Virus record (IMG/VR): IMGVR_UViG_3300008111_001005
Span: 1 to 64,000 of that record
Reading direction: 5' to 3' (one strand)
From: a virus
DNA length: 64,000 nucleotides
Shown here piece after piece: positions 10,719 to 32,439 of the stretch. The notes below the pieces were generated by a model that was given only the letters and a program-made list of their open reading frames with translations, did not search any database and had not been told where the DNA came from. Position 1 is the stretch's first letter, and every line of letters starts with the position of its first letter. Position numbers and translations under genes: made by a program.

Positions 10719-12164
10719 ATGGCTTTAATGCAAGTTCTTAAAACTTACTATAACGATCAGCAGATGACGGACACCAACTCTTTGGTGAACGCATTGATGG
10801 AGAAACCCGAAGAGCTGTCCCCAATTATCACCCACCTTGCAGGTAGAGAGGAGAAGAAATTCCCCTTGTCTTTCTTGACTGAGGGTGTTGGGAACACCAA
10901 GTCGATTGATCGTTTCGAGTATGAGTACCGTGTGAAGACGCACGAAGTTAATGTTCGTCCTGTTGTCGCAGCTACTGGCACAGGTGCAGGTGGATCAATG
11001 TTCACCGTCACTTTCCCGGACAAGTGGTTCATTTTCCCGTACACCTTGGTTTCTCAATCTGGGGTATTAGCTCGTATTATGGAGCAACCTGTTCCTGACG
11101 GAGCTGGGTACAAGTACACTTTGAAGCTTGTCTCTCCCGATGCGGGTGCTCTTTCTGCAAGTGAGGGTAATAAAGATTTAGCGGTAGGTGCATTGTGGGG
11201 TATGCTCTACGCTAACGTAGGTGTTGACTTCTCTCGCGGTAATGCATCTAACTGGACTGCACCGGGCTTGGTCAGAAGCAAAATCGGTACGGTTCGTAAG
11301 TCTTACCACTTCGCTGGTAATGCTAAAGATTATGTTGCACAATTCACCCTCCCGATGAAGGATGGTCAAACGACTAAGTTGTGGATGGATTACGAAGAGT
11401 ACCGCCACATGCTTAAGTTTAAGGAAGAGTGTGAAATGTACTACTGGTATGGTGCTAAAACCTATGACGACAACGGAGTTAACCAAATGCTTGACGAAAA
11501 CGGTCAACCCGTTATCTCTGGTCCGGGTCTCTTCGAGCAAATCATCAATAAGGACACCTACTCTAGCTTGACTCAATCTAAGATTGAGGATGTTATCGGT
11601 GATTTGTTCTACGGTATGACAGATGCTACGGATAAGCAAGTTACCTTGTACACTGGTATCGGTGGTGCTCGTGAGTTCGATAAGGCTATGCGTAACTACT
11701 ATGCTACTGGAGGTTTAACAGCTTCTAATAGCTACTTACAAACGACTCAACCGACGTTCATCACTGGTAGCGGTCGTAACCTCGGTATCACGGGTTACTT
11801 CACCTCGTATGACCACATCGACGGTCACCGTGTGAATGTTGTTAAAGTTCCGTTGTTTGACCACGGTCCGGTTGCTCAAGCTTCTAAGAAGCACCCTGAG
11901 TCTGGTTTGCCGTTGGAATCTTACAGAATGGTGTTTGTTGACCAGTCTTCTTACGATGGAGAAAACAACCTCCAGATGATTAACAAGAAGGGTCGTGAAA
12001 TGCTCCGTTGGGCAGTTGCTGGTTCGGTTGTTCCGAAAGGCTTTGCTGGTACCGATACGAGAGCATCTGATATAGACGGTGCGTCTGTACACATGTTGAA
12101 GACCGCTGGTATCCTGCTTCGCAGATTCGATACTAGCCTTGATCTTCAGTGTGTAGCATCGTAA
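10719..12164 (+). CDS. major capsid protein
   Basis: The 481-aa product is assigned by order (terL, portal, scaffold, MCP) and size. Its base use is unlike its neighbours: the third positions are much richer in C and G (for example GACCACATCGACGGTCACCG), and Gly is mostly GGT, as expected for the most highly expressed phage gene. Recognisable segments include KTYYNDQQMTDTNSLVNALM at the start and IGGAREFDKAMRNYYATGG in the middle, typical of HK97-fold capsid proteins of this phage group. A strong Rho-independent terminator follows 20 nt after the stop. Because of the biased codons, several long antisense frames appear opposite it; they are not genes. Confidence 0.85.
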   Translation: MALMQVLKTYYNDQQMTDTNSLVNALMEKPEELSPIITHLAGREEKKFPLSFLTEGVGNTKSIDRFEYEYRVKTHEVNVRPVVAATGTGAGGSMFTVTFPDKWFIFPYTLVSQSGVLARIMEQPVPDGAGYKYTLKLVSPDAGALSASEGNKDLAVGALWGMLYANVGVDFSRGNASNWTAPGLVRSKIGTVRKSYHFAGNAKDYVAQFTLPMKDGQTTKLWMDYEEYRHMLKFKEECEMYYWYGAKTYDDNGVNQMLDENGQPVISGPGLFEQIINKDTYSSLTQSKIEDVIGDLFYGMTDATDKQVTLYTGIGGAREFDKAMRNYYATGGLTASNSYLQTTQPTFITGSGRNLGITGYFTSYDHIDGHRVNVVKVPLFDHGPVAQASKKHPESGLPLESYRMVFVDQSSYDGENNLQMINKKGREMLRWAVAGSVVPKGFAGTDTRASDIDGASVHMLKTAGILLRRFDTSLDLQCVAS

Positions 12165-18927: not shown

Positions 18928-19273
18928 CAACTCTGACGACGAGTTTGATGATATCGACGATATCGACGATCTCGAAGATTTCTCTTATGAAGAAGAAGTT
19001 GAAATCATAGACTCAGCTTATAGGAATGCATTTAAGATTGCTACGGGAGAAATGAATTTCAAGCAATTTATGATGGACTCTGATGGAATACAGTTCTTCG
19101 CTTTTGACCCTTCAGACCCAGAAACATTTGAACTGATTATTGATGACATGATTGAGTATTTTGAAGAAACTGAGGAATACGAAAAATGTCAAACTCTTGT
19201 AAAATTAAAGAATTCAAAAACGCTTATAAAGGATTTAAATAAGCGATTAAAAACATCTGAGGATGACACTTGA
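18908..19273 (+). CDS. acidic hypothetical protein, 121 aa
   Basis: The start is placed at ATG 18908 (MSNINFNNSDDEFDD), overlapping the phosphoesterase end by 20 nt. Upstream in-frame ATGs would lie deep inside that gene. The first 40 residues are strongly acidic, with a short repeat (DDIDDIDDLEDF). The rest is helical and mixed-charge (FELIIDDMIEYFEETEEYEK), ending in a basic stretch. It overlaps the next gene by 11 nt. Function is unknown; an acidic DNA-mimic or assembly chaperone would be speculation. Confidence 0.55.
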   Translation: MSNINFNNSDDEFDDIDDIDDLEDFSYEEEVEIIDSAYRNAFKIATGEMNFKQFMMDSDGIQFFAFDPSDPETFELIIDDMIEYFEETEEYEKCQTLVKLKNSKTLIKDLNKRLKTSEDDT

Positions 19274-19958
19274 TGAGATCGCATACAATTTGATCAACGC
19301 TCTTCGTGGGGGTAGAACTAACCACGATGAACATATATCAACTGATCAAATTAAATTTAACATTAAGCATTATCGTGCCGTATTCATTCGTCGTGACTAC
19401 GCTCGTAATGGTTTAATTACTAGACACTTAGAACAAGATTTAGGGTGTTTAAAACTCATCAAGGTTGATGCCAGCAAATGCTGTGATCTTCCTGTAGATT
19501 GTCCTATTTACCGTACTGAAGAAGAGATCCCTAGAACAGTGAGATTCAACTTCAGAGAAGCACTTACCTTCATAGGAGACATTACTGGGTTAGGAAGAAT
19601 CCCCCAAGTAGAGCCCTATGAAGTTTCTTTTTTACCCTACGATAAATATACAAGGAACCATCCCAAAGCATATATGATAGAGGACTATCTGTATGTCTAC
19701 AATCCGAAAGGGATGGAGTATATCAACGTAAGAGGAATCTTTGAAGATCCTGAGGAGATAGCAAACTTTGAATGCAATGGGCCTTGCTACGATTCTAAAT
19801 CTAGATTCCCCATGCCTGCAGATATGGTGAGTGCCATTACTACAGGTATGATGAATGGGGAATTAAAAATACTGGGGATGACATTTGCAGATAGTGAAGC
19901 AGATAGATCGCAAGACTATTCCCCACTTAGAATGCCTAATACAATATCTGAAGATTAA
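19263..19958 (+). CDS. conserved virion adaptor/ring-type protein
   Basis: The 231-aa product has an N-terminus (MTLDEIAYNLINALRGGRTN and the region HISTDQIKFNIKHYRAVFIR) matching a structural protein widespread in crAss-like and related Bacteroidetes podoviruses. It is comparable in position to tail-adaptor proteins such as T7 gp11. It is a mixed alpha/beta protein with a cysteine pair KCCDLPVDC near residue 75 and another cysteine pair near 185 (FECNGPCYD). It probably forms part of the ring stack between portal and tail. The ring assignment is inferred from family context. Confidence 0.6.
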   Translation: MTLDEIAYNLINALRGGRTNHDEHISTDQIKFNIKHYRAVFIRRDYARNGLITRHLEQDLGCLKLIKVDASKCCDLPVDCPIYRTEEEIPRTVRFNFREALTFIGDITGLGRIPQVEPYEVSFLPYDKYTRNHPKAYMIEDYLYVYNPKGMEYINVRGIFEDPEEIANFECNGPCYDSKSRFPMPADMVSAITTGMMNGELKILGMTFADSEADRSQDYSPLRMPNTISED

Positions 19959-21922: not shown

Positions 21923-22405
21923 ATGCTCGGTCTTAAAGAGATTTATTCTGCATATTGTAACTCAGTTAAAGAGCCCCTCCCCAAGGAACTATTTACAACA
22001 TTAATTCAAGAGTTTAATCTTGAAGTTGTTAATAGACTCCTTGAGGGGGAGGCCTTTAACATGAGAAACCATCTCTCTAATATTTGTATTAAGAGAATGC
22101 AGAGAAACCCATCATCTCCAACTGTAGATTGGTGGGAAAGTCTGAGATACAAGCAAGAGCTATTACAAGAAGGGAAAGAGCTTTACAGCGAAGACAACCC
22201 TGAAGGTAATAAATGGTTTATATACTATACAGATCCTTGGTACTGCAAGTATCATTGGGAAAAGCATAGATGCAAAATCCCAAACAAGAGTGCGTATAGA
22301 TTTACCCCGTCAAGAGGTTTAAAGGGAAATAAAGAGAAGCTCACTAAACTTTTGAAAACTAACGAATTAGCATATTTAAGATTCCAAACTTATGGCAATA
22401 AGTAA
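21923..22405 (+). CDS. conserved hypothetical protein, 160 aa
   Basis: Mixed alpha protein. The N-terminal helix region (KELFTTLIQEFNLEVVNRLL) is followed by an aromatic-rich part with KWFIYYTDPWYCKYHWEKHR and YRFTPSRG, and a lysine-rich C-terminus. Similar proteins ('NRLL.G..fn...LS.i.i...P..vDW') occur next to ring-protein genes in Bacteroidetes phages, as remembered from that family; their function is unknown. It overlaps the next gene by 14 nt, which links it to the structural gene that follows. Confidence 0.55.
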   Translation: MLGLKEIYSAYCNSVKEPLPKELFTTLIQEFNLEVVNRLLEGEAFNMRNHLSNICIKRMQRNPSSPTVDWWESLRYKQELLQEGKELYSEDNPEGNKWFIYYTDPWYCKYHWEKHRCKIPNKSAYRFTPSRGLKGNKEKLTKLLKTNELAYLRFQTYGNK

Positions 22406-22802
22406 GACAACCTCCAGTAAAGCAATTATCAGGAAGATATTCAGAGATCTGAACCCTAGTTCAGATAACTGGGTTGAAGATGCTATTGAGTGGATTGGGG
22501 AAGCTCTTGAACACATCGGAGCTGCAGCCCAATTAGAGAAGAAATTATGCTTAGTTAATATCAAAGATTACAAAGGAGCTCTTCCTACAGATCTTTATTA
22601 TATCAACCAAGTAGCTGTAAATAGTTCTGTAAACCCATCTATAGCTACTGAGTTAGATGAATTGCTTGCTAAAGTAGATGACATCTATTATCTGCTTGAG
22701 AACAATCCTGCACAGGATCTTACATATCAATTGAGAGATTTTAACTCTAGGATTGTTGTTCTTGAGAATATCTACACATCTAGTGAGATGGATATCCATT
22801 AG
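22392..22802 (+). CDS. conserved virion protein, N-terminal part of a split gene
   Basis: The 136-aa product starts MAISKTTSSKAIIRKIFRDL, with WVEDAIEWIGEALEHIGAAA and DYKGALPTDLYYINQVAVNS. This is the N-terminal half of a structural protein that I recognise from crAss-like phages as a single longer chain. The stop at 22800-22802 comes just where the conserved chain should continue, and the continuation is present in another frame (from 22787). A beta segment usually found between the two halves appears shortened. This may be a natural split, a decayed gene or an indel in the sequence. Confidence 0.6.
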   Translation: MAISKTTSSKAIIRKIFRDLNPSSDNWVEDAIEWIGEALEHIGAAAQLEKKLCLVNIKDYKGALPTDLYYINQVAVNSSVNPSIATELDELLAKVDDIYYLLENNPAQDLTYQLRDFNSRIVVLENIYTSSEMDIH

Positions 22803-22831
22803 TCCCAGATGATATCTCTTTTAAAGAGGCT

Positions 22832-23635
22832 ATGTTCTGGTATATATACAAGAAGATACTTCTTGGGGGAGACTCTATTACAAACAATGGGGTTGATTAC
22901 ACATTTGCTGAGGGTCAGTGGAAATACTACTGTACTCAAGCTAGAAATGCTGCAAACTACCCAGACATTGCTAAGATGGAAAGCTTTATGAACCAATGGG
23001 TTAGACTCATTCCTAACATCAATAGATATGATGAAGGGTTTGATACTCTTGGAGCTAGAGAGAATCTTTACAGAGGTAGATACAATTCATTCAATGTTCA
23101 ATCTTGGCCAGAAGCAAATAGAACGGGAGGTGGAACTCCGTCTACTGGTCCTAAAGCAGAAAGCACCGTGAGAAGAGTTTCACTTGCAGTTTGGGAAGCA
23201 AATACAAATGCTGCTGTTCAAAATGTAATAGCTAATTATCCAACCCCACTTCAATTAAATTCCCCACTTTCTACAGATGTAACATTAACACCTGGAAATG
23301 CTACTATCGCTGTAGGAACTAATAACTGGGTGCTTGGGAATATGAATGCAGGTAATACTCTGCAATTTACATTCAATATTACAGGCACTTTAACGGGTAG
23401 TACTAGTGGAGCTGATATTCTGGTTAGAGTAACTCTTACTAATACAGATAATAACACTAACTATACAATTGGGGAATACTACTACAGCGGGTCAGCTGGA
23501 GCAGTATCTTTTGCTGGGGTAGTAACATACATAAACACTAATATAGCTAGTGCCTCTCTTAAAGTAGAAATAGACTCTCCGAGCGTTCAAATGAATAATG
23601 CCCGTATCTCTTCTGGAAACATTAGAATTCAATAA
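22832..23635 (+). CDS. conserved virion protein, C-terminal part of a split gene, with added beta domain
   Basis: The frame is open from 22787, where it reads DGYPLVPDDISFKEAMFWYI before and across the ATG at 22832. It continues with YTFAEGQWKYYCTQARNAAN and FMNQWVRLIPNINRYDEGF, the conserved C-terminal half of the protein encoded just upstream in another frame. From about residue 95 the chain differs from the family as I know it. It becomes a Thr/Asn/Gly-rich beta domain (LNSPLSTDVTLTPGNATIAV), probably a fibre-attachment or adhesin-like extension. Whether it is translated alone from ATG 22832, or joined to the upstream part, cannot be told from sequence. Confidence 0.6.
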   Translation: MFWYIYKKILLGGDSITNNGVDYTFAEGQWKYYCTQARNAANYPDIAKMESFMNQWVRLIPNINRYDEGFDTLGARENLYRGRYNSFNVQSWPEANRTGGGTPSTGPKAESTVRRVSLAVWEANTNAAVQNVIANYPTPLQLNSPLSTDVTLTPGNATIAVGTNNWVLGNMNAGNTLQFTFNITGTLTGSTSGADILVRVTLTNTDNNTNYTIGEYYYSGSAGAVSFAGVVTYINTNIASASLKVEIDSPSVQMNNARISSGNIRIQ

Positions 23636-23643
23636 TACCCAAT

Positions 23644-24282
23644 ATGTTCACTTATAGGATATATGTAGATGGAGGTCATCATGTTATAGCTACCTATGAG
23701 AATGGAACTCTCTTAGGAGAAGCTACATATATCATAAGATCATTAGAGGCAATTGCTGGAACAGGAACAACAGTAACTATAAGAAGAGTATATAATCAAG
23801 CTGCAGTATTCGCTAATATCCCATTTGCAGATTTACAACAGAGTACTGGAACTCAGTGGGGTAATAATCAAACAGCTACAGTTAATGCTCTGAATGTATT
23901 TTTACAGTCCGCAGTTGGAGGAGGAACTATAACCTCTGTTAATGGAGATACAGGACCTATAGTTGTATTATTAGGAACAGAGATAAATAGAACTGGAAGT
24001 GCTAACATAACAATAGATGCTGCTATTTCTAGTACAGAGTCAAGTATAACAGCTTTGTCTGGGGATGTGGCCACTCTGTTTACTATGATTGGGCAAACGA
24101 AAGGAGGGGGTGCTAAAACCTTTCTTAAAGATGAGAATGAAACATCTCAATTAGAAATAACAAGTGCTACAACAAAAGTAAATAATGTATTACTTTTAAC
24201 TCCTACAAACACTGCTCCTGCTAGTCCTCCTACTGGAGGTATGTATATGAACTTAACAGGAGATCTATTTATATCAAAATAA
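23644..24282 (+). CDS. fibre-like protein, 212 aa
   Basis: Beta-rich and low-complexity. The N-terminal domain (about 1-70; MFTYRIYVDGGHHVIATYEN) is followed by GGGTITSVNGDTGPIVVLLG, a common phage-fibre repeat. Next comes a stretch that may be a coiled-coil/trimerisation segment (SSTESSITALSGDVATLFTM). The C-terminal module PTGGMYMNLTGDLFISK resembles fibre tips. It lies 8 nt after the split structural gene and leads the fibre cassette. Receptor binding is inferred. Confidence 0.6.
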   Translation: MFTYRIYVDGGHHVIATYENGTLLGEATYIIRSLEAIAGTGTTVTIRRVYNQAAVFANIPFADLQQSTGTQWGNNQTATVNALNVFLQSAVGGGTITSVNGDTGPIVVLLGTEINRTGSANITIDAAISSTESSITALSGDVATLFTMIGQTKGGGAKTFLKDENETSQLEITSATTKVNNVLLLTPTNTAPASPPTGGMYMNLTGDLFISK

Positions 24283-24308
24283 AAAATAACTTTTAAAACA
24301 AAAACAAA

Positions 24309-25598
24309 ATGGGTACTTGGAAAAAAGTCTTAACAGAAGCCGACAAATCAACTTTAGGTAATAGTTTAACTAATGCTGATACTGGTCTAGTAGTTGGTAG
24401 TCAAGTAGTTAACTGGGTAAATGCTCAGGGATATGGTACTGGAGCCGGAGACATTACTGAAGTTAATACTAATTCAGGATCAGGTCTTACTGGAGGTGCT
24501 ACCACTGGTGCTGTAACACTTAGTATTGATTATCTTGGAACAGATAACTTTATTAATACACGTACAGCAGTAACAGCCGCTATTGATGCTGGAGATTTTA
24601 TTTTATATCATGATGGTACAGATAGTGATGTAAAAAAGGGTGCTGTATCATATCTTCCATTCACTAATAACACAGGTACAGTAACTAGTGTATCAGTAGT
24701 GAGTTCTAATGGATTTGCTGGAACATTAACTAATGCTTCTACAACTCCAGCTATTACATTAACCACAACTATAACAGGGGTATTAAAAGGTAATGGGACT
24801 GCAATATCTGCTGCTACTGCAGGAACAGATTATATGGCTCCATCTAGTACGATTAATTTAGGTACAAGCAATTTTGCTTTAAATAGAGCAAGTGCAGCGC
24901 AAACATTAAATGATGTCAGCATTACTGGTAATGCTACAACTGCAACTACAGCTACAAAATCTACAAACTTAGCTGGGGGTAACAATACTACGCTGTTAGG
25001 TTCAATACCTTATCAGTCACATGCTGATACTACAACTTTATTATCTCCAAATACAACAACTACAAAACAGTTCTTATCTCAAACCGGGACAGGAACCAAT
25101 GGGGCAGCTCCCTCTTGGAGTGCAGTTTCTAAAACAGATGTAGGATTAAGTAACGTAGAAAACACAGCTCTCTCTACATGGACGGGTAGTTCTAACATTA
25201 CAACAATTGGAGCAGCTACGGCTACATCATTGATTGTTACTGGGGATTTGACTGTTAATGGAAGTACTACTAATATTAGTACAACTCACCTTATAGTAGA
25301 AGATAAAATTATCACATTAGCTGATACTGGATCTCCTACAACAACTACTGGTAGTGGAGCTGGTATCCAAATCGAAACCTCCGCAACGGCGGCAGAGTGG
25401 CCTGAATTTATCTGGACAAATGGAGGTAAGTTAACAGGTTGGACAGTTTCTAATCATACTGCAACTGCAACTGTAGACTACCCTGTTGCTATTATGGAGT
25501 TTAGTGCATCTACTGCCCCAACAACGGGAGATGCTGCGGGATTAGGATCTTTTTACTTTGTTGAATCTACTGGAGCACTTTATATCAGAACTGCGTAA
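24309..25598 (+). CDS. tail fibre protein, 429 aa
   Basis: Typical long-fibre composition (Thr, Ser, Gly, Asn) with repeated short beta motifs. The N-terminus MGTWKKVLTEADKSTLGN is a fibre anchor also found in the gene at 25922. Near residue 310 is GDLTVNGSTTNISTTHLIVE followed by DKIITLADTGSPTT, a motif common in fibres of marine and gut phages. The C-terminus GLGSFYFVESTGALYIRTA is a small tip module. No endosialidase or autoprotease motif is seen. It overlaps the next gene by one base. Confidence 0.75.
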   Translation: MGTWKKVLTEADKSTLGNSLTNADTGLVVGSQVVNWVNAQGYGTGAGDITEVNTNSGSGLTGGATTGAVTLSIDYLGTDNFINTRTAVTAAIDAGDFILYHDGTDSDVKKGAVSYLPFTNNTGTVTSVSVVSSNGFAGTLTNASTTPAITLTTTITGVLKGNGTAISAATAGTDYMAPSSTINLGTSNFALNRASAAQTLNDVSITGNATTATTATKSTNLAGGNNTTLLGSIPYQSHADTTTLLSPNTTTTKQFLSQTGTGTNGAAPSWSAVSKTDVGLSNVENTALSTWTGSSNITTIGAATATSLIVTGDLTVNGSTTNISTTHLIVEDKIITLADTGSPTTTTGSGAGIQIETSATAAEWPEFIWTNGGKLTGWTVSNHTATATVDYPVAIMEFSASTAPTTGDAAGLGSFYFVESTGALYIRTA

Positions 25599-25783
25599 TG
25601 GCAATCTTAACCAAACACGTTGCTAAACAAAACGAGAACACTGATTTATCAGGACAGGAGCTTACATTCTTGCTTAATTTAATTTCAAAGAGTACCTTTG
25701 AGGGTCGAGACGTTCTTCTCTTAAATAGTATTGTCACTAAAATAACAGCAGAAATAAAAGCTCATGAAACTGGAACTCACTGA
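25598..25783 (+). CDS. small helical protein, 61 aa
   Basis: Small, mixed-charge, helical protein (NTDLSGQELTFLLNLISKST; LNSIVTKITAEIKAHE). It is coupled to the fibre gene by a TAATG overlap and overlaps the next small gene by 20 nt. No homologue is recognised; placement between two MGTWKK fibre genes suggests a fibre-assembly accessory role. Confidence 0.5.
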   Translation: MAILTKHVAKQNENTDLSGQELTFLLNLISKSTFEGRDVLLLNSIVTKITAEIKAHETGTH

Positions 25784-25922
25784 AGTCTTGTTTATTAAGG
25801 AGTCAATGACTCATGTTACTATTAAGGCAATCAATGCTCCACAAGTAGCAAAACTCATTGATAAGATTGATAAAGAAATAGATAGATTAGAAAAAGCACA
25901 ACTACCTGAAATACCTGACTAA
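25764..25922 (+). CDS. small helical protein, 52 aa
   Basis: A complete short frame (ATG 25764, TAA 25920-25922). The product begins MKLELTEVLFIKESMTHVTI and ends in a charged helix, VAKLIDKIDKEIDRLEKAQ. It overlaps both neighbours (20 nt upstream, 1 nt downstream as TAATG), a typical coupled arrangement. The terminal helix could be a coiled coil. Function is unknown; it may be a partner of the fibre proteins. Confidence 0.55.
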   Translation: MKLELTEVLFIKESMTHVTIKAINAPQVAKLIDKIDKEIDRLEKAQLPEIPD

Positions 25923-26305
25923 TGGGAACTTGGAAAAAAGCAATACTTGAAGGTGATAGTAGTCTACTCCCAACCGGGGGTACGACAGGACAAGTATTGG
26001 CTAAAAATTCAGGGACTAATTATGATGTTACATGGACTACAAAAAAGGTAACTCAAGTTACAGGTAAAACTGTAGCAACTGGAGCATGGTCTTTAGTTTC
26101 TGGGGTATATGAAGCAAGTATATCAGACGCAGCTATTCTTTCTACATCTATTGTAGACATTATCCCAAATAATGCAGACGCAAGCACGATTCGCACAGCG
26201 GGTCTTTTGCCGAGAACTGATAGTAGTTCTGGCTCTGTAAAAATTTATGCAACAAGTGCTCCAACAGCAACAATTACAGTTACTTTAAATATATTTGATT
26301 TATAA
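25922..26305 (+). CDS. short fibre-like protein sharing the MGTWKK anchor, 127 aa
   Basis: It starts MGTWKKAILEGDSSLLPTGG, paralogous to the first residues of the fibre at 24309, and continues with TTGQVLAKNSGTNYDVTWTT, a fibre repeat. The C-terminal half is a small beta domain (WSLVSGVYEASISDAAILST; VKIYATSAPTATITVTLNIF), which looks like a fibre tip. It may be a second, shorter fibre using the same attachment site. One-base overlaps on both sides tie it to the cassette. Confidence 0.6.
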   Translation: MGTWKKAILEGDSSLLPTGGTTGQVLAKNSGTNYDVTWTTKKVTQVTGKTVATGAWSLVSGVYEASISDAAILSTSIVDIIPNNADASTIRTAGLLPRTDSSSGSVKIYATSAPTATITVTLNIFDL

Positions 26306-27267
26306 TGGCAGTAGGAAAATTTGCAGTTCCAGCATCGGCCACAGGCGGCGGAGGAAGTGGAACACTTACGAAGACATTAAGGACATATACAAGCGGCGAC
26401 ACGTGGTCAAAACCCTCTGGTTTGCAACATATTGAAGTGCTTTGTTGCGGGGGAGGAGGAGCTGGAGGGTCCGGTTCAACCGCCGCAACTTCTACCGTAG
26501 CTCGAGCGGGTGGTGGTGGTGGTGGCGCATCCTGTATGGAGCATCAAATATTGGCATCAGCATTGGGGTCAACTGAGACTGTTACCATTGGAGCTGGTGC
26601 TACGGGTCCAGCAGGTATAAGTGCAAGTAGCACAGCAGGAACATCAGGAGGCGCAGGTGGAGATACTTCGTTTGGTACACATGTTGTAGCAAAAGGGGGC
26701 AATGGTGGAGTACCAACTGGAGGCCTTCAAAATGCTATAGGAACTGGAACTCCTTCGTACGGCCCAAGGTCATTTCCAGGCGGCGCGGGATCCAACTCAA
26801 GCGTATCCGGTGGGGGCGGAATTCAGGGTGGTGCCCAAACCGTGACGGCAGGAACTACTAACTTAGCATTCGCAATAATGGGTGCCGCTGGCGGTGGAGG
26901 TTTGGGTTCTGCAAATACCATAGGTATAGGTGGAGTAGGAAATAGATATTATCAATTAAACGGCACTCTTTCAACTGCTGCTGCAGCTGGGGCAGTTGCT
27001 GGTGCTAGTGGATCAAATGGAGCAAATAATGTATGGGATAGATTGTTGCCAAAATTTTTTCTTGATGCTGGAGCTACTGTTACAATAGGGAGTAGTGGTG
27101 GTGGTGGAGCCGGGCAGATAGGCGGAAATGCAGGCAGTGGAGGAAATGGAGGTTTATATGGGGCATCTGGGGCGGGTGGAGGTTCAGCCCGCAACGGATT
27201 TACCAGCGGAGCCGGAGGCAACGGTGCGGGTGGGTTTTGTTTAGTACTTGAATACACAATCACATGA
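26305..27267 (+). CDS. glycine-rich adhesin/tail tip protein, 320 aa
   Basis: Strongly Gly-rich, with motifs such as VLCCGGGGAGG, ARAGGGGGGASC, GGGGLGSANTIGIGG and SGGGGAGQIGGNAGS. The segment DTWSKPSGLQHIEVLCCGGG near residue 35 fits the start of a glycine-rich phage receptor-binding domain ('W.kP.g...i.V.l.GgGG'), comparable in style to polyglycine tips such as T-even gp38 adhesins. The base composition shifts: many GGC, GGT, GCC and CGC codons and higher GC than flanking genes, suggesting recent acquisition or exchange. It probably determines host range. It ends with CLVLEYTIT and overlaps the next gene by 4 nt. Confidence 0.7.
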   Translation: MAVGKFAVPASATGGGGSGTLTKTLRTYTSGDTWSKPSGLQHIEVLCCGGGGAGGSGSTAATSTVARAGGGGGGASCMEHQILASALGSTETVTIGAGATGPAGISASSTAGTSGGAGGDTSFGTHVVAKGGNGGVPTGGLQNAIGTGTPSYGPRSFPGGAGSNSSVSGGGGIQGGAQTVTAGTTNLAFAIMGAAGGGGLGSANTIGIGGVGNRYYQLNGTLSTAAAAGAVAGASGSNGANNVWDRLLPKFFLDAGATVTIGSSGGGGAGQIGGNAGSGGNGGLYGASGAGGGSARNGFTSGAGGNGAGGFCLVLEYTIT

Positions 27268-27488
27268 TATACGCAATTATAAAAGAAGGTTATATTATTA
27301 ACCGCATCCTTGCAGATTCAAAACCAGACTACCCGTTTCCACACGATTGGATTTTCGAGGATGTTGATCATTACACACACATCGGCGACTGGTACGAGGA
27401 GGCGGAGGGTATCTTCTACCGGCCTATTGGAAGTCCTGAAGATTGGCCAGATGAATTAAAACCACCCCAGCAAGAACAAGATGAATAA
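27264..27488 (+). CDS. small fibre-chaperone-like protein, 74 aa
   Basis: Begins MIYAIIKEGYIINRILADSK, with HIGDWYEEAEGIFYRPIGSP and an acidic/proline end (KPPQQEQDE). This pattern ('yaiI.dG.V.Nvi...GD.y....g.fy') is common in small proteins encoded right after phage fibre genes, which act as caps or assembly chaperones. It overlaps the glycine-rich adhesin (4 nt) and the muzzle gene (8 nt). The role is inferred from pattern and position. Confidence 0.6.
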   Translation: MIYAIIKEGYIINRILADSKPDYPFPHDWIFEDVDHYTHIGDWYEEAEGIFYRPIGSPEDWPDELKPPQQEQDE

Positions 27489-30400
27489 ATTTATTAAGGG
27501 AATGTACAAAGACTCCGAGAGAGTCGATCAGATTGAGGGCACTTACAGAGATGCCCTCAATGCTAATTTGTACGTATCTAAAGGTGCAGTTGTAAATGAG
27601 ACAGGGAATGTAATAGCTTATACTAATAGATTAGATGAGTGGACAGATATTATTGGGCAATGTAATCTTGAGGATGGGAGAATAGTAGTATTTTACAAAA
27701 GAGTTAAAAAGACTGGGGGAGCAAGCATATCTGCTATTGGGGTATTAAACCCAAGAGAACAGACTTTTAAAGAACTGTACATTAACGATGATCTTAATTT
27801 CCAAGCTGATCATACGATTGAAGCTATGGAGAAGATCTCTAGCACTAAAGATGTCCTTATATATTTCACAGATAACTATATTAATAGACAGGTAGACGAG
27901 GCTACTGGGATTTCATATGTTGCAGAAAACAATCCCCCAAGAGTATTTAATCTTTCTAAGCAAGAAAGACATGTAGATGCTACTGGAGGAGATGTAGAAG
28001 TTCTTTATGATGAGAACAGATCATACAATGTAGATAAGCTTGATCTGTTTTTAAATACAGGTAATATCCCACAATTTTTAGATGTTAGCATAGAAGAAGG
28101 TGGGGGTGTAGTATCAGGAACATACCATCTTGCATTAGCATATGTAGATGAAGATGGAAATGAAACTAACTACATGACTACTTCAAATGCTGTATATCTT
28201 GTAACAGCACCTGAAGATGCAATTCCTACAGAGACTATCATTGGGGATCCACAAGGATCTCAGTCTAATAAATCTATTTCTTGGGAAGTTCAAATCCCAT
28301 CTAACTTAAACTATACTCATATACAACCCACAGTCATTCAAAGATTTGGGGGTATAAACCAAGAGTCTAGTGAGTTTGCATATAAGTTAGACAAAGTAGA
28401 GATTATAGATGAGGCACTCATAACTGTTACCTATACAGGTTTAGAAACAGCAGCATCTACATCTGTAGCATCTACTATCATAGATAGTGTAAGATACGAG
28501 ACTGCAAAAAGCATTACTCAGTTAGATAATCAGATGTATATATCTAACTTAGAAGCTAGAGGAGATATTGGGTATCAGAGATTTGCAAATAACATTCAGC
28601 TTGACTCTGTAGTAGAAACAGTAGAAGACTTTGATCCTAGATACTTTGATGTACTTAGTATTAATAGAGGTAATAGTAACTTTTTATCTACTAATACATC
28701 TACATCATATGAGCTAAGTACTTCTCTGAGAGACTATTACGATGTACAATCTAACGAATTACAAGCACTTAGTGATGCCCAAAAAGCATTCTTTTCTAGT
28801 AAAGTCAGAAAGGGGTATAAAGATGTAAAACTATCTTATAAAATGAAATCCTTCAGACGTTCTGAAGTATATGCATTTTACATATCCTTTGTTTTAAAAG
28901 ATGGGACTGAGACATATGCTTATCATATTCCTGGGAGATCTCAGCGTGTAATAAATTATACATTTGGAGCTTCTAGTATAACTATTAATGAGAATGATCG
29001 CATCTCCAATTACAATATCCCAAATACAAATGAACTTCTTCTTAATAATTTATTTAATACAGGAGAAATAGCAAAAGCTTATCCAGATGCTAAACTCCAT
29101 CAAGTTGTAGATACTCAATTACTTGCTTGGGAAGCTTCTGGTGGACAAGACGCAAGGACAACTAGTTACTGGGAAAATGACAACGAGTTGTACCCAGATA
29201 CAGATGACTTCTCAATCTTTAATGTAGACAGCAATGGGAAACCTGCAGACACACAAACTGATATTAAACAACTCAATGTTAGGCACCATAAAATGCCTAC
29301 AAATAAGATAAGTACTTATGGGTTTGTTGCTAATACAGCGTACGATAATAGTTGGAATGGGATTAATGATTTTGACCCTAATATTAATAATCAGAATACT
29401 GGGGTAGGTACTACAGATCAAACCCTAACTCTAAAGGAAAATATAAATATCCTTGGAGTTAAGTTATCTAATATAAAGATTCCTCGATTTATTTTAGAGC
29501 AAATACAAGGATATAAGATATACTACGCTAAAAGACAGCAGGCTAATAAGACTATTATTGGGCAAAGCGTTGTAGTCCCAAGTGTATTTATTGGGAATAT
29601 GGTTCCAACAATGAGTACTACAAAAGCTAAAGCGGGTCCTTTTAATAGGGCATTTCATATGGTTGGAGCTCCTATACATGATGAAGATTTATTCTTTAAT
29701 GTTAAAAAAGCCGTATCTTCAAATGGATATACTTCACTATATAAAGCTTTTTCTGTATTTAAGTTCCACGATTTCAATTTATTAAAGAACAAACATACTC
29801 TTACTGGGGCTTCTCATATTGATATTCAGTATGTACTTCCTATGCAGGTATATGCAGGTGGACCACATGTTAGAGAACGCATTGAAGATGGGCAAGACAG
29901 ATTTGATAATATACCTTGGGTTGGGACAGATATTGGAAATACTGTAGATCCTGAGGATGCGGGAACCAGTGCAATTCCTCTATATTTAAGAATTACAGCT
30001 TTTAATACTTCTGTATTATTGGCCGCTGGATACGCTAACCCAAGTGCTTTACACTCATCTACAAATTTTGAATTTGCTACAAAGGCAGCTCAAAATAGTT
30101 ATTTTATAAGCAACTTAAATTCAATATTTACTGTACACCCAAAGAGTATTACTTATCTTCCAGGACATACACAATTAGAAGTAGGATCTGGAACTTCATT
30201 TCATGGGGTAAAATACTTATTAAATTTTGGGGGTGAAAGCGCTATTGCAATTGGGTTAACATCTGGACTCCCAGCACTTAGAGGTTATAAGCAATCCAAC
30301 TTAGCTACTATTCTTACAAATGGAAATACTACATATTTATGGAATAGCAGAGGAGTATATTTAGATACTACAGATAATGCAGATAATAAAAATGCATTAA

Positions 30401-32439
30401 CTCAATTAGCCACAAGTAGAACTGGAAATCCAGTATTATACTTGACTAATTTATGCGCAATTAAGAGTGACGTATATAAGTCATTTGACGAGCAAGCTTT
30501 AGTGTGGACTGGGTATTATAAAGATCTTAGTGAAGTTGACGTAGAGAGTGGGGATGATAGAGGTAACAACTATTATGACGGAGCTCAGTCAGATAACATC
30601 TTTGGGGGTGATACATACATAACTAGATATGGATTTAGAAGCACCAGTTTAAGATACGGGTGGTCTAGATTTAGTCAAGACATATCTGATGGAGGAGATG
30701 ATATTCCATTCCAAGGTAATCATACAGGAAGCTTGCAAGTATCCACAGATGCCACTCAAGCAAATTATAATAACACTGGTAATTGGATTAGAGGTAATAA
30801 CAACCCAAATGCATCTATATACTATTTCTTCTGTGAAGCAGATGATTTGATTGGGTATAGATACAATGCAGATCAGACTCAAGGTGTAAATGAAGATAAT
30901 GGGAGATTCTTTGACTATGCTAATGCATCTGCTACGTTGTTTAATTCTCCAATAAAAGATAACACTAAGTCTGATAACTTACTGTATATGAACAACTACT
31001 CTCTTAATCAAGATATTAGAGTAGCTGTCCCACTTCCTAAAGTAAGAACAGATATAAATAGCTTCCCAACTAGAACCATTAGATCTAATAATGATGAAGG
31101 TTCTATCTCTGATAAATACAGAAAATACTTAGCACTTGAGTACAAGGATATCCCAAAGAATAAGGGGGATATTTGGAAGATATTCACAATGAATGGGTTA
31201 CTCTTTATGCACACAGAGAGAAGCCTGTTTACAACTAAGGGCAAGCAAGAGATCAATCTTGGAAACTCAGGGGCTGCATATGTTGGGGGAGGGAATCTGT
31301 TTGAGCAAGAACCTCAAGAGATTGTAATCTCTGCAGAGGGTTATGGGGGTACAGATGCACAGTTCTCTTCTTTAACTACGAGATACGGACAGTTCTTTGT
31401 AAATCGTAAAGACCGTAAGGTTTATCTATTTGGGGATCAGATTGAAGAGATAAGTGCAGCTGGAATGGAGTTGTGGTTTATTCAGAATCTCCCATATCAA
31501 GTAGAAGAGCTTGGGTTAGATCTTGATAAAGTCACAAACGCAGATGCCCCAACTAAATGGTTTGGGTTTACAGCTGCATACGATTCTGCATACAAGAGAA
31601 TCATCTTAACTAAGAAAGAGAGAAGGTTAATCAATCCAGAAGCTATAAGTAATAACTCAATTCAGAATGGGGAGTTCATTAATCAAGCATACAATGACTT
31701 TGATGATGATAATCTCTACGAAGATGCTGGGTGGACAATATCATATTACCCTGAATTAAAATCTTGGGGTAGTAGACATAGTTATACTCCTAAACTCTAC
31801 GCTTATAACTCTAATGCATTCTTTAGCTTTATCATAGAATCTGGTAAAGGATACATCTGGAAGCATGACAATGACAGTTTTCCATGTAACTTCTATGATG
31901 AGCAATTCAACTTTGAATTTGAGTTTATAGACAATCAATCTCCTGCACAGTCCAAGATATTTAGTGCTGTAAAATACCATGCTGATGTGGTTAGCCCAAG
32001 CTCGACATACCCACATCAATTACATAAGCATACATCTCCTGGATTTACACAATTCTATGTCTATAATACTAATCAAATATCTGGGGAGAAAGACATTAAC
32101 TATCTCTCTAATTCTAGGCTAGTAGATAGAATATGGTGGATTAATGAGTTCAGAGATATGAGTGCAACTACATCTCTGACTAACAATAGTTTAGTTACTG
32201 GGATTATTAATGTACAAGGAACTTACACAACTGGGGTAGTAAATAACTTAGATGCTATTCCTATGTTCGAAGAAGAAGGAGTAATCAATACTAGTTATTT
32301 AAACACAAACAAAAGTTGGTTTGATCAGAGAAGGCTTGTAGATAATTATTTAGCTATAAGACTAATTAGTGATAATTCAGAGAATAATTTAATATATTTG
32401 TATTCTGCAGGCACTAAAAACAGACCATCCTTTAGGTAA
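27481..32439 (+). CDS. tail muzzle / stabilisation protein
   Basis: The 1652-aa product opens with MNKFIKGMYKDSERVDQIEG, then TYRDALNANLYVSKGAVVNE. This is the signature opening of the large 'stabilisation protein' of Bacteroidetes podoviruses, the tail muzzle protein of crAss-like virions. The body is beta-rich without enzymatic motifs; the C-terminal half includes FTAAYDSAYKRIILTKKERR. In crAss-like virions the muzzle closes the tail tip and helps retain cargo. Its position after the fibre cassette and before the giant cargo genes agrees. The family call is good; the mechanism comes from related phages. Confidence 0.75.
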   Translation: MNKFIKGMYKDSERVDQIEGTYRDALNANLYVSKGAVVNETGNVIAYTNRLDEWTDIIGQCNLEDGRIVVFYKRVKKTGGASISAIGVLNPREQTFKELYINDDLNFQADHTIEAMEKISSTKDVLIYFTDNYINRQVDEATGISYVAENNPPRVFNLSKQERHVDATGGDVEVLYDENRSYNVDKLDLFLNTGNIPQFLDVSIEEGGGVVSGTYHLALAYVDEDGNETNYMTTSNAVYLVTAPEDAIPTETIIGDPQGSQSNKSISWEVQIPSNLNYTHIQPTVIQRFGGINQESSEFAYKLDKVEIIDEALITVTYTGLETAASTSVASTIIDSVRYETAKSITQLDNQMYISNLEARGDIGYQRFANNIQLDSVVETVEDFDPRYFDVLSINRGNSNFLSTNTSTSYELSTSLRDYYDVQSNELQALSDAQKAFFSSKVRKGYKDVKLSYKMKSFRRSEVYAFYISFVLKDGTETYAYHIPGRSQRVINYTFGASSITINENDRISNYNIPNTNELLLNNLFNTGEIAKAYPDAKLHQVVDTQLLAWEASGGQDARTTSYWENDNELYPDTDDFSIFNVDSNGKPADTQTDIKQLNVRHHKMPTNKISTYGFVANTAYDNSWNGINDFDPNINNQNTGVGTTDQTLTLKENINILGVKLSNIKIPRFILEQIQGYKIYYAKRQQANKTIIGQSVVVPSVFIGNMVPTMSTTKAKAGPFNRAFHMVGAPIHDEDLFFNVKKAVSSNGYTSLYKAFSVFKFHDFNLLKNKHTLTGASHIDIQYVLPMQVYAGGPHVRERIEDGQDRFDNIPWVGTDIGNTVDPEDAGTSAIPLYLRITAFNTSVLLAAGYANPSALHSSTNFEFATKAAQNSYFISNLNSIFTVHPKSITYLPGHTQLEVGSGTSFHGVKYLLNFGGESAIAIGLTSGLPALRGYKQSNLATILTNGNTTYLWNSRGVYLDTTDNADNKNALTQLATSRTGNPVLYLTNLCAIKSDVYKSFDEQALVWTGYYKDLSEVDVESGDDRGNNYYDGAQSDNIFGGDTYITRYGFRSTSLRYGWSRFSQDISDGGDDIPFQGNHTGSLQVSTDATQANYNNTGNWIRGNNNPNASIYYFFCEADDLIGYRYNADQTQGVNEDNGRFFDYANASATLFNSPIKDNTKSDNLLYMNNYSLNQDIRVAVPLPKVRTDINSFPTRTIRSNNDEGSISDKYRKYLALEYKDIPKNKGDIWKIFTMNGLLFMHTERSLFTTKGKQEINLGNSGAAYVGGGNLFEQEPQEIVISAEGYGGTDAQFSSLTTRYGQFFVNRKDRKVYLFGDQIEEISAAGMELWFIQNLPYQVEELGLDLDKVTNADAPTKWFGFTAAYDSAYKRIILTKKERRLINPEAISNNSIQNGEFINQAYNDFDDDNLYEDAGWTISYYPELKSWGSRHSYTPKLYAYNSNAFFSFIIESGKGYIWKHDNDSFPCNFYDEQFNFEFEFIDNQSPAQSKIFSAVKYHADVVSPSSTYPHQLHKHTSPGFTQFYVYNTNQISGEKDINYLSNSRLVDRIWWINEFRDMSATTSLTNNSLVTGIINVQGTYTTGVVNNLDAIPMFEEEGVINTSYLNTNKSWFDQRRLVDNYLAIRLISDNSENNLIYLYSAGTKNRPSFR

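Follow-up and report, generated by a model that had tools for sequence, protein, structure and literature searches.

Results

A Ring protein 1 gene divided between two frames

The window analyzed here, 64,000 nucleotides of a linear virus record of 67,212 bp, harbors two overlapping ORFs in different frames which, judged from their family matches, are the front and rear portions of a single crAss-like Ring protein 1 (R1) gene, a homologue of phicrAss001 gp43. In this record the gene was almost certainly broken by a recent out-of-frame deletion of 181 bp, which arose either in the phage or as an artefact of a chimeric molecule or of assembly. The parts of the gene are located as follows, L002 being IMGVR_UViG_3300045999_000599, a sister contig of 42 kb and the nearest relative found:

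22392..22802, + strand: Ring protein 1 gene, front part (136 aa; PF24228 positions 2-79, E 4.7e-20)
22787..22788, + strand: deletion junction (181 bp fewer than in L002, 2-bp GA overlap)
22787..23110, + strand: Ring protein 1 core, back part, in the other frame (PF24228 positions 173-268, E 9.8e-24)
23111..23635, + strand: Ring protein 1, C-terminal extension with a predicted TNF/C1q-like jelly-roll fold

The front ORF, which contains WVEDAIEWIGEALEHIG, starts with ATG at 22392 and ends with TAG at 22800-22802; it keeps the frame of the family up to residue 132, followed by four out-of-frame codons and the TAG. The second frame is open from 22787 to 23635 and contains DGYPLVPDDISFKEAMFWYI, so that the two frames overlap by 16 bases (22787-22802). 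Both ORFs were thus found as the initial annotation had described them. Its recognition of the pair as halves of one crAss-like virion protein was also confirmed: searched separately, the two parts matched the CrAss_Ring_1 profile (PF24228, length 272) with 72.6 and 84.6 bits, and since both scores are far above the curated cutoff of 27 bits, the match is more than chance. Neither part matched profile positions 80-172, and no single frame of the window holds the whole-length domain with its middle beta-sandwich segment. The window gene is therefore a broken copy of CrAss_Ring_1 and not an intact member.

In phicrAss001, R1 (gp43; PDB 7qog, 7qoi, 7qoj, 7qol, 8ckb) makes up a ring of twelve subunits in the tail barrel, at its portal end (PMC10172136). 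The front and back parts of the window gene match its family, and the intact R1 of L002 matches gp43 itself by sequence (E 6.4e-17), the phicrAss001 ring protein also being the top PDB fold match of the L002 R1 model. The window gene differs from gp43 in missing the middle of the profile, owing to the 181-bp deletion, and in having a C-terminal extension, which is absent from the 236-residue gp43. The assignment agrees with the nearby genes for Ring protein 2, the muzzle protein and a crass major capsid protein:

10719..12164, + strand: major capsid protein (PF23898 Crass_capsid, E 1.3e-74)
19263..19958, + strand: Ring protein 2 (PF25702 CrAss_Ring_2, E 1.6e-39)
27481..32439, + strand: muzzle protein (PF25731 crAss_MUZ, E 2.2e-23)

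Twenty large plus-strand genes of the window end in TAA (17 genes) or TGA (three genes), and none in TAG. An AT-rich genome could show this by chance; as a point in favor of the TAG of the front ORF being out of frame, it is weak.

Homologues are unbroken and share a block that the window lacks

The initial annotation had left to a comparison of homologues whether one gene or two should be expected. From IMG/VR loci, 110 ORFs with both parts were collected, corresponding to 74 distinct sequences. In all 74, R1 is a single unbroken ORF across the position of the junction, and in none is it split; two of them (L041, L069) terminate prematurely within the back part, close to or right at the limit of the available sequence. 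At the junction position all 74 carry a block of 57-61 aa, of which the window has nothing. In a 17-sequence alignment the invariant residues of this block include C151, C154, Y165, K173, G179, C182, Y185, P189 and D191 (L002 numbering), and an AlphaFold2 model of the L002 R1, of moderate confidence, places three strands within it (165-168, 171-174 and 178-187). In ring proteins a helical part is combined with a beta-sandwich (PMC10172136).

The cysteines of the block, HCxxC at 151/154 and C182, are invariant in these environmental R1 proteins (residues 138-182 of L002 and homologues). They could possibly form a metal site or disulphides; in phicrAss001, disulphides link the ring proteins to the fibre hub (PMC10172136).

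The junction lacks 181 bp relative to the sister contig

The R1 of L002 is one intact ORF of 470 aa (L002:3425-4837), to which the protein of the front part is 97% identical. To the left of the junction the window gene and L002 differ at three of 400 positions (~99% identity). Only these three substitutions, one of them nonsynonymous, were found in the front part, which therefore gives no sign of older decay. To the right, 184 bases (22787-22970) are 100% identical. The left alignment ends at 22788 and the right one begins at 22787, with a register offset of 181 bp. The lost 181 bp amount to 60 codons and one base, and the odd base changes the frame, which makes the terminal TAG of the front ORF an out-of-frame codon. 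Of the two origins that the initial annotation had offered, an indel or a natural split with a swapped domain, the indel was thus borne out; its size, however, is 181 bp and not the one missing or extra base that had been envisaged as restoring a single frame.

Exact searches with each flank returned the sister contig alone, which remained the single close relative found, and a search of genome contigs gave no relative. No other viral contig showed the same junction, although very near records may lie outside the search. With one close relative, and with such records possibly missed, a lineage sharing the deletion may exist.

In the proposed mechanism, the two flanks would have been joined at the 2 bp (GA) that they share. 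This could have happened in a phage genome, giving a variant that is defective or in the minority, or in a chimeric molecule of the library that the assembler took up. The front part would then reach TAG four codons beyond the breakpoint, with the back part left out of frame, while the functional phage would presumably make one fused R1 with the C-terminal knob.

Between these two origins, an artefact or a dead-end template appears slightly ahead of a real deletion, since R1 is conserved as a component of the virion and the junction lies close to a strain-divergence boundary: the identity to the sister contig drops sharply at 22970, ~180 bp past the junction, and mixtures of strains would complicate assembly near such a boundary. 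The lack of decay in the rest of the gene and the occurrence of the junction in no other viral contig point the same way. In favor of a real deletion, an overlap of 2 bp seems too short for a repeat-collapse join by the assembler; in addition, of the ORFs that window and sister contig have in common, R1 is the only one split, and since the others are unsplit, the assembly is otherwise sound.

Other readings of the divided gene

If the deletion is real and persistent, complementation could come from a helper phage, or from a further R1 gene in an unsequenced part of the genome. The record is probably incomplete, as it has 67 kb and several related contigs have 80-96 kb, and related strains appear to recombine, identical and diverged blocks alternating along the sister contig. 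Nevertheless, complementation is improbable: the 67,212-bp record contains no second R1 and, for the missing block, chance-level matches only, and R1 occupies a single locus in the sister record.

Still less probable is a functional natural split, in which 136 aa and ~267 aa (from ATG 22832) would jointly act as the ring protein and the second polypeptide would bring in a receptor-binding-like domain. Both pieces are open reading frames without further damage, and a start codon is available in the back part at ATG 22832. This ATG, however, follows DGYPLVPDDISFKEA and is itself within the conserved core, still more of which would be lost with a start at this position; even together, the two pieces lack the invariant-rich block with its three predicted strands, and none of the 74 distinct homologues is split. 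It would be just as surprising to find a viable crAss-like phage that lacks much of the R1 beta-sandwich and makes two ring-protein polypeptides, the second consisting of a helical segment and a jelly-roll knob translated on their own.

The absence of the block from the rest of the record also means that neither programmed frameshifting nor a one-base correction could restore the protein, and both explanations were rejected as barely conceivable. For frameshifting, the 16-base overlap at 22787-22802 would allow fusion of the two frames, but a slippery heptamer, which the initial annotation had already stated to be lacking, is indeed absent from 22785-22802 (GAGATGGATATCCATTAG, read directly), the fused product would still lack ~60 conserved residues that are missing from the DNA, and intact relatives require no shift. 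A one-base sequencing error dividing an otherwise complete gene would connect the frames by a single-base shift, but the deficit is 181 bp relative to L002 and a protein block relative to every homologue, and indels in the other blocks that align with the sister contig leave the other compared ORFs unsplit.

With a deletion as the preferred explanation, a false lead is removed: nothing here calls for a virion gene that is split, frameshifted or domain-swapped, or for a new mode of expression, and pipelines that list the two ORFs as separate proteins misannotate the phage.

Mosaicism in the tail region

Window and sister contig are identical from the junction up to 22970 and then only ~66-73% identical or unalignable over the C-terminal knob and the next tail-region genes; identity of 91-97% resumes at 25301 and 27471 (boundary region 22970-27470). 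The stretch of ~66-73% identity from 22971 thus sits between blocks of 91-100%, an alternation that suggests module exchange by recombination, and the R1 knob is located at the edge of the variable part of the genome. Within this region, at 25922-26305, a 127-aa ORF of the window matches the first 41 residues of a 581-residue ORF of the sister at 90%; by this comparison it is another tail-region gene of which the remainder differs between the sister phages.

The C-terminal extension is shared with intact R1 proteins

The extension comprises ~170 residues past the R1 core. The initial annotation was right that the second half carries a beta-rich extension, but not that this was gained with the split, since a profile of the extension matched the intact R1 proteins of L002, L068/L106, L075-L077, L080/L081 and L082. 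No match was found in other ORFs of the loci or of the record itself. Environmental crAss-like R1 proteins with a knob (L002, L068, L075, L080, L082) are of the same core-plus-extension type as that of the window, differing in being unbroken single ORFs. Most R1 homologues stop shortly after the core, and in a quick tree of the R1 core with midpoint rooting the carriers of the extension did not form one exclusive clade.

Modelled alone with AlphaFold2, the extension is predicted to form a jelly-roll beta-sandwich (pLDDT 86.8, pTM 0.80), and its PDB fold matches are mostly TNF/C1q-like jelly rolls with TM of about 0.4-0.6 (best about 0.55-0.60), a fold resembling that of RANKL, the phage Sf6 tail-needle knob (3rwn) and Bacillus ExsF. 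In contrast to these, it is fused to a tail-ring protein, and a sequence relationship to them is undetectable: the extension gave no Pfam C1q/TNF match, no PDB sequence match and no convincing sequence family, so that the likeness to TNF/C1q holds at the level of fold only. A portal-tail chain of cyanophage A4 (9k09_A) was also among the fold matches; the literature on this phage held nothing relevant to the extension, and in the literature collection searched no paper was found on a ring protein with a jelly-roll or C1q domain in crAss-like phages.

While the split itself is ordinary, the fusion of R1 and knob is a modest finding in itself. As a by-product of the analysis, a subset of crAss-like phages was found to have an R1 with a predicted TNF/C1q-like knob, and a tail ring bearing twelve such knobs could plausibly be the site of a surface-binding decoration.
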